Shown in pieces: positions 36,840 through 43,239 of a stretch of DNA of 64,000 nucleotides. Positions within the stretch are counted from its first letter, which is position 1. Every line of letters begins with the position of its first letter. The notes beneath the pieces were generated by a model. That model ran no database searches, was not told the origin of the DNA, and saw only the letters and a list, made by a program, of their open reading frames with translations. This DNA comes from Maritalea porphyrae (GTDB lineage: Bacteria; Pseudomonadota; Alphaproteobacteria; Rhizobiales; Devosiaceae). Position numbers and translations under genes: made by a program. The DNA lies in assembly GCF_027213965.1 (NCBI RefSeq), contig NZ_JAPWGX010000003.1, positions 496,001 to 560,000 on the forward strand, given 5' to 3'.

Positions 36840-36976
36840 AAACTCGACCTTCTTTCGCGCTTAATTCTTGTCTTTGACTTTTTGCAACTAACTCACACAA
36901 AAGTTGGGTGTGGGTTGTAGGGAAAAAGGTTGACGAATGGTTGCGTGCTTCCTAAAACGTGAGGGCAAAATACCAG

Positions 36977-36993
36977 TTTAGAATTATTCAAAA
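36977..36993. promoter_or_regulatory. Irr-box-like palindrome before the suf operon
   Basis: TTTAGAA-TTA-TTCAAAA is a near-palindrome with one mismatch between arms. It resembles the iron control element reported for Irr in Rhizobiales. A second overlapping perfect palindrome, AAAACTAGTTTT, covers 36990-37001. It lies about 100 bp before the first suf gene. Function is inferred. Confidence 0.5.
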
Positions 36994-37091
36994 CTAGTTT
37001 TTGGTCCAATTAGTCCGACTTGAGCGATCCTTTTACCTATTTAGGGGACGAAATTTCAAGAACTGATTGGATTATTTAGCCAAATGAGTGA

Positions 37092-38261
37092 ATGAATTTC
37101 GATAAAATGACCAAACTTGTCACATATCTTGACCATCATGCCTCTGCGCCGCTGCTGCCTGCAGCGCGCGACGCGATGATTGATATGCTCGAAATTGTTG
37201 GAAATCCGTCTTCTGTACATGCAAATGGCCGCAAATTGCGGGCAGCTATTGAGACGGCGAGAGACAAATTGGCGCTTGCCGCAGGCACCATTCGTTCGCG
37301 CGTGGTGTTTACAGGGTCCGCAACTGAAGCTTTAACGCAAGCCATTGTTGGTGGTGCACAAAGTGGCGATGTTTCGCGCATTGTTTATGGCGCGGGTGAA
37401 CATATGGCTGTTGTGCGTGCCGTTGAAGCGACGGGCAAAGCGGCCAAAACGATCCCGATGTTGACGAACGGTCTTTATGACCTTGAGTGGTTGGCAGCTG
37501 AAATCAGTGCGGCCAACGACGCTGATGAGCGTCTAATGATCGTTGTGCAGCAAGTTAACAATGAAACAGCCGTAATTCAACCGATTGCGGATATTGAACA
37601 CCTTCTGGCTGAAACTGGACATTTGCTGATATTGGATGCAGCACAGGGATTTGGCAAAACCCAGTTTTTCTTCGACCCGTCACGAGTTGATGCAATGGCG
37701 ATTTCTGGCCACAAAATTGGCGGATCGGTTGGCGTTGGTGCGTTGATTGTGAAACCTGCAATGGACAGTGCAAAACTGATCCCGGGTGGTGGGCAAGAGC
37801 AGGGCCGTCGTGGCGGCACCGAAAGCGCTGCGCTGATTGCGGGATTTGGTGTTGCAGCCGAAGATGCAAAAACGCGATTTGATGCGGTTCGTGCCGCAAA
37901 ATTGATCGAATTGGCCCAGGAAGGGCTGTTGAAAATTACACCCAATGCCACCATCTTTGGCATTGATGTGGAGCGCACAGGCACCGCCATGTGTTTTGCC
38001 GTTCCAGAATTGAAAAATAACATTAGCCTGATCAATTATGATCTTGAAAATGTGGCACTATCGGCGGGCTCTGCTTGTTCGTCGGGTAAAGTTTCTCGGT
38101 CGCATGTTTTGTCTGCAATGGGCGTTGATGACGCGCTTGCGGATTGTGCGCTGCGGCTGAGCGTGGGGTGGAACTCCACAGGGGATGATATTGAGAGATT
38201 TTTGACCGTGACAAAGAAAATTGTTGCGCGTCACCAATCAACTCGCGGCGCTGCTGCGTAG
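37092..38261 (+). CDS. Cysteine desulfurase, IscS/NifS-like (group I), first suf gene
   Basis: A 389-residue class V PLP aminotransferase that takes sulfur from cysteine for Fe-S cluster assembly. It has the N-terminal YLDHHASAPL, the PLP-binding HK in AISGHKIGGSVG near residue 212, and the mobile active-site loop with Cys in SAGSACSSGKVSRSHVL near residue 330. That loop is of the group I (IscS-like) type. An alternative ATG at 37107 gives 384 residues. It lies 31 bp before sufB. A second, group II desulfurase (SufS) is encoded five genes later. Confidence 0.9.
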   Translation: MNFDKMTKLVTYLDHHASAPLLPAARDAMIDMLEIVGNPSSVHANGRKLRAAIETARDKLALAAGTIRSRVVFTGSATEALTQAIVGGAQSGDVSRIVYGAGEHMAVVRAVEATGKAAKTIPMLTNGLYDLEWLAAEISAANDADERLMIVVQQVNNETAVIQPIADIEHLLAETGHLLILDAAQGFGKTQFFFDPSRVDAMAISGHKIGGSVGVGALIVKPAMDSAKLIPGGGQEQGRRGGTESAALIAGFGVAAEDAKTRFDAVRAAKLIELAQEGLLKITPNATIFGIDVERTGTAMCFAVPELKNNISLINYDLENVALSAGSACSSGKVSRSHVLSAMGVDDALADCALRLSVGWNSTGDDIERFLTVTKKIVARHQSTRGAAA

Positions 38262-38292
38262 TAGGATTGGAAAGCGTTAAGGAGCTTAAAGA

Positions 38293-39762
38293 ATGGTAGC
38301 GGTTCAAGAGACGATTGATCACGTTAAAGAGATCGAAGTCGACAAATATAAATATGGGTTCAAAACCGATATCGAAATGGATATGGCGCCAAAAGGCTTA
38401 AGTGAAGACATTGTGCGCTTCATTTCTGCCAAGAAGGGTGAGCCGGAATGGATGCTTGAGTGGCGTCTTGATGCCTATCGCCGTTGGTTGCAGATGGAAG
38501 AGCCAAAGTGGGCGCGGGTAAATTATCCTGAAATCGACTTCCAAGACCTTTATTACTATGCTGCTCCAAAATCGACACCTGGGCCCAAAAGCCTAGATGA
38601 AGTTGATCCTGAGTTGCTTGAAACATACAAAAAGCTTGGCATTCCGTTGCAAGAACAAGCTGTGTTGGCAGGCGTTGAAGGCGCAAAAATTGCGATTGAT
38701 GCGGTGTTTGACAGTGTGTCTGTTGTGACCACGTTCCGCGAGGAATTGAAAAAGCACGGCGTGATTTTCTGTTCAATTTCTGAAGCGCTAAAAGAATATC
38801 CAGAGCTGGTGAAGCAGTATCTTGGATCTGTTGTGCCGGTGACGGACAATTATTATGCAACATTGAACGCGGCTGTGTTTTCTGATGGTTCATTTGTTTA
38901 CATTCCAAAAGGCGTGCGTTGCCCAATGGAATTGTCGACCTATTTCCGGATCAATGAAGAGAAAACTGGCCAGTTTGAACGCACGCTCATTATTGCTGAA
39001 GAGGGCTCCTATGTGAGCTATCTTGAAGGCTGTACCGCGCCGATGCGCGATGAGAACCAACTGCACGCCGCAGTTGTTGAGCTTGTTGCATTGGATGATG
39101 CTGAGATTAAATACTCAACCGTACAGAACTGGTATCCGGGCGATAAAGACGGCAAGGGTGGTATTTATAACTTTGTGACCAAGCGTGGCGATTGTCGCGG
39201 CAAGAATTCGAAAATCTCTTGGACCCAAGTTGAAACCGGTTCTGCGATTACTTGGAAGTATCCAAGCTGCATTTTGCGCGGTGACAATTCTGTTGGTGAA
39301 TTCTATTCAATCGCGGTTTCTAACGGTCACCAGCAAGTTGATAGTGGCACCAAAATGATCCATTTGGGCAAGAACACCTCTAGCCGGATTATCTCGAAAG
39401 GTATTTCGGCCGGCGTGTCGCAAAACACTTATCGCGGTCAAGTTTCAGCCCATGCGAAAGCAACCGGCGCACGCAACTTTACCCAGTGTGACAGCTTGTT
39501 GATTGGTGACAAATGTGGTGCGCATACGGTGCCTTACATTGAAAGCAAGAATTCAAGCGCCGTGTTTGAACATGAAGCCACAACATCGAAGATTTCAGAT
39601 GATCAAATGTTTTATTGCCAACAACGTGGCCTGAACGAAGAAGAGGCGGTTGCCTTGATCGTGAACGGTTTTGTGCGAGAAGTTCTTCAGCATTTGCCCA
39701 TGGAATTTATGGCGGAAAGCCAAAAGCTGATTGGCATCAGCCTTGAAGGTAGCGTGGGCTAA
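38293..39762 (+). CDS. sufB: Fe-S cluster assembly protein SufB
   Basis: A 489-residue scaffold subunit of the SufBC2D complex. The signature regions are the N-terminal [20 protein letters not shown] and [10 protein letters not shown], the central [17 protein letters not shown] and [11 protein letters not shown], and the C-terminal beta-helix with [28 protein letters not shown] cysteine-containing [19 protein letters not shown] strip lies near residue 365. A good AAGGAG precedes the ATG. It is followed by a small membrane ORF 4 bp later, then sufC. Confidence 0.97.
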
Positions 39763-39766
39763 TCCA

Positions 39767-39928
39767 ATGGAAAAACTGCTATTTGCGATTGCTGTTGGCG
39801 CGGGTATGGGCTGGTTGGTCGCTGGTCACGTAAAAAAAGACGAGCCCAAAATGTACAAGCAAATTGGCTTGATCGCTGGCGCGATTGCCGCTGGCGTTGT
39901 GTGGGCCGTTGCAGTTTTTGTTTGGTAG
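39767..39928 (+). CDS. Small membrane protein (53 aa) inside the suf operon
   Basis: A 53-residue ORF starting ATG 39767, four bases after the sufB stop codon. Two hydrophobic segments, about residues 4-18 (LLFAIAVGAGMGWLVAG) and 31-50 (IGLIAGAIAAGVVWAVAVFV), flank a charged loop (HVKKDEPKMYKQ). Codon use is like its neighbours. I do not recognise a family. Its close spacing within the operon suggests co-transcription with sufB; a link to iron-sulfur assembly or membrane association of the Suf complex is speculation. Confidence 0.65.
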   Translation: MEKLLFAIAVGAGMGWLVAGHVKKDEPKMYKQIGLIAGAIAAGVVWAVAVFVW

Positions 39929-39939
39929 CCAAAATTAAG

Positions 39940-39977
39940 GCGGCAATTGCCGCGAATTGAACAACGCCCTAAAGGGC
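39940..39977. repeat. Hairpins in the sufB-sufC gap
   Basis: A perfect 14-bp palindrome GCGGCAATTGCCGC (39940-39953) is followed by GCCC-TAAA-GGGC (39966-39977). Neither has a T tract. They lie in the only long (100-bp) gap of the operon and may tune relative expression of sufC. Confidence 0.6.
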
Positions 39978-40028
39978 AAATAGATGACAGGCCGACCGGG
40001 ATGACGGCCGCACAGAAGGACAAATACG

Positions 40029-40796
40029 ATGACTACGCCAATTCTTGAAATTAAAAATCTGCACGTAAAGGTCGAGGAAGAAGACAAAGAGATCCTCAAA
40101 GGCGTGAATTTGACGCTACCTGCCGGAGAAGTTCATGCGATCATGGGCCGCAATGGTTCTGGCAAGTCGACCCTTTCCTATGTGCTCGCTGGTAAGGACG
40201 GTTACGAGGTAACTGAGGGTCAAATCCTGTTCCACGGCGAAGACCTGCTGGAAATGGACGCGCACGAACGTGCTGCAGCTGGCCTGTTCTTGGCCTTCCA
40301 ATATCCGATTGAAATTCCGGGTGTTGCAACCATGACTTTCCTCAAAGCGGCATTGAACGCCCAGCGCAAGTCTCGCGGCGAAGAAGAGCTAAAAATTCCT
40401 GTATTCATGAAAATGGTGAAGGATGCAGCAGCAAAGCTTGAAATTAAACAAGAGATGCTGAAACGACCATTGAATGTTGGTTTTTCTGGTGGCGAAAAGA
40501 AACGTGCAGAAATCTTGCAAATGGCATTGATGCAGCCTTCGCTTTGCGTGCTTGATGAAACTGATTCTGGTCTTGATATCGACGCATTGAAAATTGTTTC
40601 AGAAGGCGTGAACCACTTGCGTTCTGAAAATCGTTCAATGCTCGTGATTACCCACTATCAACGCTTGTTGAACCACATTGTACCTGATCGTGTGCATGTG
40701 TTTTCGGACGGACGCATTGTAGAAAGTGGCGATCGCGATTTGGCACTTGAGCTTGAGAGCAAAGGTTATGCCGGTTTTGACAATCACGCGGCATAA
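40029..40796 (+). CDS. sufC: Fe-S cluster assembly ATPase SufC
   Basis: A 255-residue ABC-type ATPase of the SufBC2D complex. Walker A is IMGRNGSGKSTL near residue 40, the Q-loop is LAFQYPIEIPG, the signature is VGFSGGEKKRAEI near residue 152, and Walker B is SLCVLDETDSGLDID (with the SufC-typical DETDSGLD). The H-loop is LVITHYQRL. ATP hydrolysis drives structural changes of SufB-SufD during cluster assembly. Separated from the small membrane ORF by 100 bp. Confidence 0.97.
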   Translation: MTTPILEIKNLHVKVEEEDKEILKGVNLTLPAGEVHAIMGRNGSGKSTLSYVLAGKDGYEVTEGQILFHGEDLLEMDAHERAAAGLFLAFQYPIEIPGVATMTFLKAALNAQRKSRGEEELKIPVFMKMVKDAAAKLEIKQEMLKRPLNVGFSGGEKKRAEILQMALMQPSLCVLDETDSGLDIDALKIVSEGVNHLRSENRSMLVITHYQRLLNHIVPDRVHVFSDGRIVESGDRDLALELESKGYAGFDNHAA

Positions 40797-40810
40797 GGCG
40801 GGGCAAGCAG

Positions 40811-42016
40811 ATGAATAAAGATATCAAATTGAGTGGGGCTGAGGAGCAGTTGCAAGCACTGCTTTTATCGCATGGCAACAAAGAAGCAGCGGCGCAATTT
40901 GCTGCAAATGGTTTGCCAACGCGTCGGATTGAAGCATATCACTATACCGACTTGAAGAGCTTGTTGCGCGAAGTGCCGAGCGCTCTGGCTGTCGCAAACG
41001 ATGGTGCCTCTGCAAAGCGTTCAAACTTTGATGGCGTGGCGCGCATTGAAATCGTCAACGGCCAATTGGCCGGCGATTTTGATGTGGAAGGCGTAAGTGT
41101 TGCAACAAGTGGCAATACTGGCACTGGTGACGACAGCGTTGTTTTGCTTAGCGAAGCCCTTGTTGGTGATGTTGTAGAGATCAAGATCTCTGGTGAACTT
41201 GACCAAGTGCTTCATATTGACCGGATCATTGATGGCGATGCAGCGATCAATGCGGACAAAGTGTCTGTTACGCTGGAAGATGGCGCAAAAGCGACATTGG
41301 TTGAAACATACAATGGTTCTGATGCAGCGCATTTACGGTTGGCGACAACAGAGGTTGTATTGGGTGAAGGCGCTGAATTCTCCCATTTTCAGCTTGATGG
41401 CAACTCATCTGCAACGCGTCATTTCGCAAACAATCGCTATGAATTGAACGCCGACGCGCAGCTGAGCACATTTGTACAGCAATCTGAACCTCAAGTTAGC
41501 CGCACGACCGTTAGCGCAAGCTTTGTTGGTGGTGGTGCACATGCTGATTTCGCTGGATTGAACATGCTTTCGGGCACGCAGCACGGCGATATTACCGTTC
41601 ATCTGCGCCACCTTGTCGCTGACACCACAAGCACTGAAGTGTTCAAGAATATTGTGAATGGACGCGGCAAGGCTGTGTTCCAAGGCAAGATTGATGTTGC
41701 GCAACCTGCACAAAAAACTGATGCACAAATGATGTGCCAAGGGCTTATTTTGTCAGAACGTGGCGAAGTTTTGGTGAAACCTGAACTTGAGATCTTCGCT
41801 GATGACGTGCTTTGCGCGCATGGTGCGACATGTGGTGAGCTAGATGAAAACTCAATGTTCTATTTGATGAGCCGGGGTATTCCACGCACTGAGGCAAAGG
41901 CTATGTTGATCAGAGCGTTCTTGGCAGAAGTGTTCGAGCCGGTCGACGTTGAGGCTGTTGTGCATGTGCTTGAAGCGCGTGTGGATAGTTGGTTGCAGGA
42001 ACAAGAAGAGGCTTAG
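40811..42016 (+). CDS. sufD: Fe-S cluster assembly protein SufD
   Basis: A 401-residue beta-helix subunit paralogous to SufB. An N-terminal helical region (GLPTRRIEAYHYTDLKSLL near residue 40) is followed by the beta-helix. The C-terminal motif is MCQGLILSERGEVLVKPELEIFADDVLCAHGATCGELDE, read in pieces, with the conserved AHGATCGELD and SRGIPRTEAKAMLIRAFLAEV. The His near AHGAT is a likely cluster ligand in the SufB-SufD interface. Starts 14 bp after sufC. Confidence 0.96.
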   Translation: MNKDIKLSGAEEQLQALLLSHGNKEAAAQFAANGLPTRRIEAYHYTDLKSLLREVPSALAVANDGASAKRSNFDGVARIEIVNGQLAGDFDVEGVSVATSGNTGTGDDSVVLLSEALVGDVVEIKISGELDQVLHIDRIIDGDAAINADKVSVTLEDGAKATLVETYNGSDAAHLRLATTEVVLGEGAEFSHFQLDGNSSATRHFANNRYELNADAQLSTFVQQSEPQVSRTTVSASFVGGGAHADFAGLNMLSGTQHGDITVHLRHLVADTTSTEVFKNIVNGRGKAVFQGKIDVAQPAQKTDAQMMCQGLILSERGEVLVKPELEIFADDVLCAHGATCGELDENSMFYLMSRGIPRTEAKAMLIRAFLAEVFEPVDVEAVVHVLEARVDSWLQEQEEA

Positions 42017-42021
42017 GCCAA

Positions 42022-43239
42022 ATGTTTGATTTGGAACGCGTACGGGCAGATTTTCCGATTCTAAAGGAAGAAATCCACGGCAATAGGCTTGTTTATCTGG
42101 ACAGTGGCGCTTCGGCACAAAAGCCGCAGCAAGTGCTGGATCGGATTATGCATGCCTATTCTCACGAATATGCCAATGTGCACCGTGGGCTGCATACGCT
42201 TTCCAATCGTGCGACCGAAGCCTTTGAAGAGGCGCGCGAAAAAGTGCGCGCTTTTATCAATGCCCCCAGTGTTGACCAGGTTGTCTTTACTCGTTCTGCA
42301 ACTGAAGCGCTGAATTTGGTTGCAGCCAGTTTTGCTGGCCCCCGTGTTGGTGAAGGCGACGAGATTGTCATCTCCAAGATGGAGCACCATTCAAACATAG
42401 TGCCCTGGCATTTCCACCGGGAACGCAAAGGCGCGGTGATCAAATGGGTTGATGTTGCTGAAGATGGCAGTTTTGATTTGGAGCTGTTTGCTGCAGTGCT
42501 AAGCGACAAAACAAAAGTTGTCTCCATTACCCACATGTCAAATGTTACGGGTACGGTTGTGCCGATCAAACAGGTTTGTGAGATCGCTCACGCACGGGGC
42601 ATTCCCGTTGTCGTGGATGGCAGCCAAGGGGCGGTGCACGAACTGGTGGACGTGCAGGATTTGGACGTCGATTTCTACATCATGACGGGCCACAAGCTCT
42701 ATGGGCCCACAGGAATTGGCGTGCTTTATGGCAAAGCCGACTTGTTGGCGCAAATGCAGCCTTACCAAGGTGGCGGCGAAATGATCAGTGATGTGACGTT
42801 GGAAGATGTTACATATAACGAGCCCCCGCATCGGTTTGAAGCAGGTACGCCACCAATTGTACAAGCGATCGGCCTCGGCGCAGCGCTAGACTATATTAGC
42901 GCGATTGGGCGTGAAAACATCAAAGCGCACGAAGCTGAGGTTGGCGCTTATGCTCGTGAGAAGCTAAGCAAAATCAACTCTTTGCGATTGATTGGCGATG
43001 CACCGGGAAAAGGTGCTATATTCTCTTTTGCAATTGAAGGCGTGCACGCACATGATCTGAGCACGATTTTGGACCGCTATGGGATTGCCATTCGTGCCGG
43101 ATCACATTGTGCGCAACCTTTGCTGCAACGGTTTGGGGTAACATCAACCTGTCGCGCCTCGTTTGGCGTTTATAATGGCAAAGATGATGTAGATGCTTTG
43201 GTTCAAGGTATCGAAAAAGCGCAGAAGTTTTTCGCTTAA
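42022..43239 (+). CDS. sufS: Cysteine desulfurase SufS (group II)
   Basis: About 405 residues. It has the family N-terminus VRADFPILKEEIHGNRLVYLDSGASAQKP, the cofactor segment RSATEALNLVAASF, the PLP lysine in YIMTGHKLYGPTGIGVLYG near residue 225, and the Cys in AIRAGSHCAQPLLQRFG near residue 362, set in a rigid loop as in SufS. It usually needs a sulfur acceptor such as SufE/SufU, which is not encoded in this window. Start 42022 lies 5 bp after sufD; a longer frame would overlap it. Confidence 0.95.
   Translation: MFDLERVRADFPILKEEIHGNRLVYLDSGASAQKPQQVLDRIMHAYSHEYANVHRGLHTLSNRATEAFEEAREKVRAFINAPSVDQVVFTRSATEALNLVAASFAGPRVGEGDEIVISKMEHHSNIVPWHFHRERKGAVIKWVDVAEDGSFDLELFAAVLSDKTKVVSITHMSNVTGTVVPIKQVCEIAHARGIPVVVDGSQGAVHELVDVQDLDVDFYIMTGHKLYGPTGIGVLYGKADLLAQMQPYQGGGEMISDVTLEDVTYNEPPHRFEAGTPPIVQAIGLGAALDYISAIGRENIKAHEAEVGAYAREKLSKINSLRLIGDAPGKGAIFSFAIEGVHAHDLSTILDRYGIAIRAGSHCAQPLLQRFGVTSTCRASFGVYNGKDDVDALVQGIEKAQKFFA

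Follow-up and report, generated by a model that had tools for sequence, protein, structure and literature searches.

Does the Fe-S cluster assembly operon of this bacterium carry a genuine gene for a small membrane protein between sufB and sufC, and if so, is the product a part of the Suf machinery, an accessory to it or a passenger? The question is raised by a 53-aa ORF on the forward strand of the window (the whole stretch of 64,000 nucleotides analysed here), which an earlier note had described as starting 4 bp after sufB in the direction of the operon, encoding two hydrophobic helices separated by a charged loop, and falling outside the known Suf machinery. We take the flanking genes to be sufB, recognised by its sequence and operon, and sufC, recognised likewise by eye. 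The features of the locus are as follows.

38293-39762, forward strand: presumed sufB, 489 aa, its stop lying 4 nt 5' of the small ORF; relatives are 75-97% identical.
39767-39928, forward strand: gene of the predicted 53-aa two-helix membrane miniprotein, from translation, orthologues, synteny, dN/dS, AlphaFold and profile search.
39773-39826, forward strand: hydrophobic helix 1, codons ~3-20, with an invariant G-x-GMG motif (AlphaFold helix 3-22; invariant alignment columns).
39827-39862, forward strand: charged turn HVKKDEPKMYKQ, codons 21-32, with V-K, E-P and Y-K invariant across the 5 orthologues (alignment).
39863-39925, forward strand: hydrophobic helix 2, codons ~33-53, with invariant IG and IAG and a terminal W (AlphaFold helix 27-52; alignment).
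39991-40009, forward strand: GGCC-type inverted repeat in the sufC leader, a single genomic copy (at up to 2 mismatches).
40029-40796, forward strand: presumed sufC, 255 aa, the operon's next gene and the ORF following the miniprotein gene.

The reading frame opens with an ATG at 39767, 4 nt beyond the TAA stop of sufB (39760-39762), and closes with a TAG at 39926-39928; its place in the gap and its orientation, shared with both neighbours, are as the earlier note had them. An alternative TTG start at 39731 would yield 65 aa, and the ATG is favoured because the orthologues agree with it both in length and in how they begin. The protein, MEKLLFAIAVGAGMGWLVAGHVKKDEPKMYKQIGLIAGAIAAGVVWAVAVFVW, has hydrophobic stretches at residues ~3-20 and ~33-52, on either side of the charged turn, and the AlphaFold model built from the single sequence (mean pLDDT 77.6, pTM 0.41) places helices at 3-22 and 27-52, in agreement with the proposed pair of helices. 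A helical hairpin is plausible on this model, and two hydropathy windows are present in each of the five orthologues. The net charge of the turn ranges from 0 to +2 over the orthologues and is zero in two of them, so that the membrane topology is uncertain; we would place the turn on the cytoplasmic side. Of the residues through which a core Suf protein would bind cluster, sulfur or iron, cysteine is absent from all five proteins, and the only histidine is in the window protein.

Strong tblastn matches in 61 genomes (its own and 60 relatives) were confined to the genus (window, G001, G002, G003 and G005). In all five testable genus genomes, that of the window included, an orthologue of 53-55 aa lies between sufB and sufC in the same orientation; a sixth (G004), whose contig stops within sufB and where sufC was unmatched at E 1e-60, was left out as untestable. 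The four orthologues are 87, 53, 53 and 51% identical to the window protein, and the only length variation among the five is of 2 codons at the N-terminus. As synonymous sites are saturated or almost so between clades, the dN/dS figures are those within clades, namely 0.10 for G000-G003 and 0.035-0.075 for the three pairs among G001, G002 and G005, and most of the within-clade changes are at the third position of a codon. The search for the same small ORF in syntenic relatives, which the earlier note had suggested as a check, is thus positive in every testable genome of the genus, and the synteny together with the coding-type selection leads us to regard the ORF as a genuine gene. That it is spurious and has no protein product might be argued from the failure of any family model to reach it, but synteny, dN/dS and the codon-position pattern rule this out for practical purposes, and we give it next to no probability. 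Cross-clade identity is 51-53% for the miniprotein versus 93-94% for SufB and 90-91% for SufC, and dN between G000 and G003 is 0.079, whereas sufB and sufC, taken in 50-codon pieces, show ~0.009. On these comparisons the miniprotein evolves faster than its neighbours, which fits an accessory function, and would also fit a weak one.

A profile of the miniprotein matched 5 of 136 family genomes, all from the window's genus, and found no match in the other 131 or in any of the family's 15 other genera; sufB was matched in 118 of 121, and the miniprotein is thus not present wherever the operon occurs. When 397 genomes drawn from the order were searched at E 0.01, the five matches comprised both drawn members of the genus and three weak ones (G164, G356 and G465; L201-L203), which were dropped, as their loci lack a sufB, sufC or sufD match (E 1e-3). 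The same absence (E 1e-3) disposed of 25 weak tblastn matches (E 0.08-0.84; L006-L030). No Pfam or NCBIfam model matched the 53-aa protein at E up to 10, those of the Suf families (SufA, B, C, D, S, E, U and T) included, and among solved structures no chain was significant, the best E of 0.23 being at chance level for a hydrophobic query. A mobile origin was considered and rejected, since the plasmid search returned no match at E 1 and 54 pattern matches in viral contigs gave no confirmed relative. By sequence, then, the miniprotein is an orphan among the databases and genomes searched, and it would seem to represent a previously unnamed, genus-restricted family of membrane proteins.

What occupies the same slot in relatives was surveyed in 90 loci of the 118 family genomes with sufB (28 were left out; one of the 90, G004, is without the sufB end). 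A cupin gene fills the slot in 46 of the 90 loci, and a small membrane ORF starting <60 nt past the sufB stop in 15, five of these being the window's genus and one (L039) probably noise. Relatives thus have in this slot a cupin gene, nothing recognised, or unlike small membrane ORFs near the sufB stop. The slot cupins are ~155-180 aa long, occur in 1-3 copies and often start at the sufB stop (L037-L120); the one checked against Pfam (L121, identical letters in L042) matches Cupin_2 with 59.1 bits, and the window protein has no match to Cupin_2 or to any other Pfam model. In one family genome the SufB match (G143:C1:910440-911726) spans residues 58-489 only, with an internal TGA, which may reflect either a sequencing error or decay. 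Two further slots, L130 with a 113-aa ORF that presumably resembles a GIY-YIG nuclease and L200 with a 104-aa ORF that we take to resemble YbjQ, are additional signs that the slot accepts unrelated genes. Given the lack of a profile match in 15 other genera, and the many slots with a cupin or nothing recognised, Suf function does not generally require the miniprotein. A distribution of this kind makes a core Suf role very unlikely, and the claim that the ORF lies outside the known machinery is borne out by the 5 matches in 136 family genomes and by the silence of the Pfam and NCBIfam models.

Counted from where the sufB stop ends, the ORF starts at +4 in the window, +5 in G003, +10 in G001 and -1 in both G002 and G005, which show a TAATG overlap, and 60-104 nt separate its stop from the start of sufC in the genus orthologues; with the start so near sufB and sufC so far, coupling to sufB is favoured and coupling to sufC is not. 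The miniprotein is probably translationally coupled to sufB, with ribosomes most likely delivered by termination-reinitiation, and its output should follow that of SufB because its ribosomes most likely come from there. Suf rises under iron or oxidative stress, and the miniprotein would be expected to rise with it. Neither an internal promoter nor a terminator could be retained in 36900-42100, where promoter-like sites on both strands together number 4, against 5.1 (sd 2.2) in shuffles, and terminator-like sites 9, against 6.1 (sd 2.2). An RNA structure in the gap between the ORF and sufC was likewise rejected (z -1.70; 14 of 200 shuffles fold equally well). The GGCC-type repeat at 39991-40009 is common to the window and G003 and was not found in the tails of the remaining three orthologue-bearing genomes. 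The products of sufB and sufC are needed together (SufBC2D), and an ORF sitting between their genes might matter only as translated RNA that brings ribosomes toward sufC, its peptide being irrelevant; the constraint at the amino-acid level speaks against this, as do the 60-104 nt to sufC, far for direct coupling, and we hold it to be very improbable.

The wider pattern was examined in named sufB loci, most of them from Alphaproteobacteria. Of 588 matches the best 80 were kept, and 79 of these could be scored for ORFs of 40-120 aa with at least one hydrophobic helix and a start lying -12 to +40 nt from where the sufB stop ends; a hydropathy window was used in place of a topology predictor, and GTG and TTG starts were allowed. 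Such an ORF follows sufB in 15 of 79 loci (9 of the 15 with two helices), where shuffled gaps would lead one to expect ~1.0. Neither control slot has any: the count is 0 of 62 after sufC, for which no downstream limit was set, and 0 of 67 in the slot that separates sufB from the cysteine desulfurase gene before it. The 15 include the doubtful L128, and L123, which has a 50-aa membrane ORF in addition to a 45-aa one in an alternative frame; that frame, L128, L039 and L184 are the probable noise among the slot ORFs. The difference between the sufB and sufC slots (Fisher test, p 1.3e-4) carries a p value that is too small, because shared descent keeps the loci from being independent observations. 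When all small ORFs are counted, whatever their type, they follow sufB in 24 of 79 loci and sufC in 8 of 62; those lacking a helix (9 of 79 and 8 of 62) are about equally common in the two slots, so that the excess after sufB consists of membrane ORFs. Thirty family loci, the window's genus included, gave 7 of 29 after sufB versus 0 of 16 after sufC.

By phmmer, the slot ORFs of family and named loci form 16 groups, of which 4 are apparently noise. In six pairs from five groups other than that of the window, dN/dS is ~0.16-0.38, the YWFARRF pair and the L146 copy (Aminobacter/Mesorhizobium) among them being not adjacent to sufB. An ORF built much like that of the window is found within the same family in genus g16, where 3 of 13 genomes (L054, L063 and L068) have a slot ORF of 54-56 aa that likewise encodes two helices with a charged turn between them (RRKDPEWK, RRKDPEWR or RRKDPELK) and has its start 1-4 nt ahead of where the sufB stop ends; comparison with the window protein gave an hhalign probability of 2.2% (E 0.022) and shuffle z values of 0.1 to 2.0 for the three sequences. 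Homology among the window, g16 and Aminobacter/Mesorhizobium slot ORFs was not accepted, the three hhalign comparisons, one of them between the latter two groups, giving probabilities of 0.3-2.2% and E 0.022-0.17. A composition-preserving shuffle test gave z 0.1-2.8 in seven comparisons, and the top one (L140, fraction 0.0075) is not counted after seven tests. What remains after these non-significant tests is a weak similarity of the charged turns of g16 and the window. Another cluster of membrane ORFs, of YWFARRF type (L069, L077, L078, L089, L132, L193 and L197), named for an N-terminal motif, shares the slot in several lineages and starts at -11 to +27 nt from the sufB stop, but its proteins are longer (89-109 aa), have a polar N-terminal part and form a phmmer cluster separate from the window ORF; one of them (L193) had no Pfam match at E 1. 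The slot ORFs of Brevundimonas and relatives (L181, L183 and L194) resemble this type by eye.

Genes foreign to Suf have been described in this slot, including one from Muricauda, which belongs to a different phylum from the window's bacterium. That gene, momL of Muricauda olearia, resembles the window ORF in its place between sufB and sufC, but it encodes an enzyme, an AHL lactonase, according to an excerpt of the report (PMC5484670). Passages from sources that include PMC6956336 place a gene for a putative ADP-ribosylglycohydrolase in the slot of the co-transcribed Caulobacter suf operon, and describe RSP_0439, a hypothetical protein gene in the same slot, as changing along with sufB and sufC in an iscR mutant; both share slot and operon with the window ORF, a comparison made with their published descriptions. 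PMC12584684 was set aside as an example, the sufB-sufC phrase in its excerpt referring to an interaction and not to a gene slot. A membrane miniprotein in the slot is not described in the passages at hand from PMC6956336, PMC11475020, PMC4618611, PMC5484670 and PMC12584684.

Two readings of the earlier note have to be weighed here, one in which the product anchors or tunes the SufBCD complex at the membrane and one in which a small-protein gene is carried along. The conserved turn, with its invariant V-K, E-P and Y-K, might bind SufB or SufBC2D and keep Fe-S assembly near the inner membrane, other lineages having recruited other small membrane proteins to the same end. The excess of membrane ORFs near the sufB stop over shuffled gaps and over both control slots, its restriction to membrane ORFs, and the dN/dS values of the five other groups would all suit such a docking factor. 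However, when the criteria of the family slot survey are applied to the 80 named loci, 63 lack both a cupin and a small membrane ORF, the loci are related by descent, the slot groups lack significant homology, and a literature search found no publication on a membrane link of SufBCD. Tethering of SufBCD by the miniprotein is possible, and a role shared by the unlike slot membrane proteins is possible too, but we consider docking rather unlikely. Somewhat better placed, though still doubtful, is the idea that the sufB-sufC boundary simply tolerates insertions, and that this membrane protein, whose function would be unrelated, became established there and is retained for what it does. The cupins, the YWFARRF-type family and the other ORFs that fill the slot in relatives favour this, as does momL; yet the two control slots of the same operons hold no small membrane ORF at all, so that membrane proteins seem over-represented beyond what mere tolerance would give.

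As between the note's own alternatives, the carried-along small protein is at least as likely as the anchoring or tuning of SufBCD; read soberly, this would be an accessory gene that was carried along. Our preferred interpretation, which we hold with some reserve, is of a genuine, genus-restricted two-helix protein of the inner membrane, encoded within the suf transcription unit and coupled to SufB, which would be a lineage-specific accessory rather than a core Suf part; the narrow range and the fast evolution favour the accessory. The data show synteny, conservation, selection of the coding type and a prediction of two helices; its translation, its coupling, its location in the inner membrane, the conditions of its expression and its accessory role are what we infer. 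As such an accessory, the probable hairpin would pack through its Gly-rich helices, expose only the short conserved turn outside the membrane and act on a membrane target under Suf-demanding conditions.

The Fe-S cluster assembly operon would thus gain an unnamed small membrane protein. Of the leads that emerge, the one of greatest interest is that unlike membrane miniproteins recur in the slot, which is also the reason to examine the docking of SufBCD; named loci whose slot ORFs are suited to direct examination are those of Devosia sp. LC5 (L126), Aminobacter aganoensis (L150), Mesorhizobium neociceri (L146) and Brevundimonas sp. AAP58 (L183). One might speculate, although we regard it as quite improbable, that Alphaproteobacteria have repeatedly recruited unlike, SufB-coupled miniproteins that dock SufBCD at the inner membrane, Fe-S assembly being membrane-tethered and its anchor fast-evolving and lineage-specific. 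Should the slot pattern hold up, various Alphaproteobacteria would possess membrane partners for an assembly scaffold that is supposed to be soluble.
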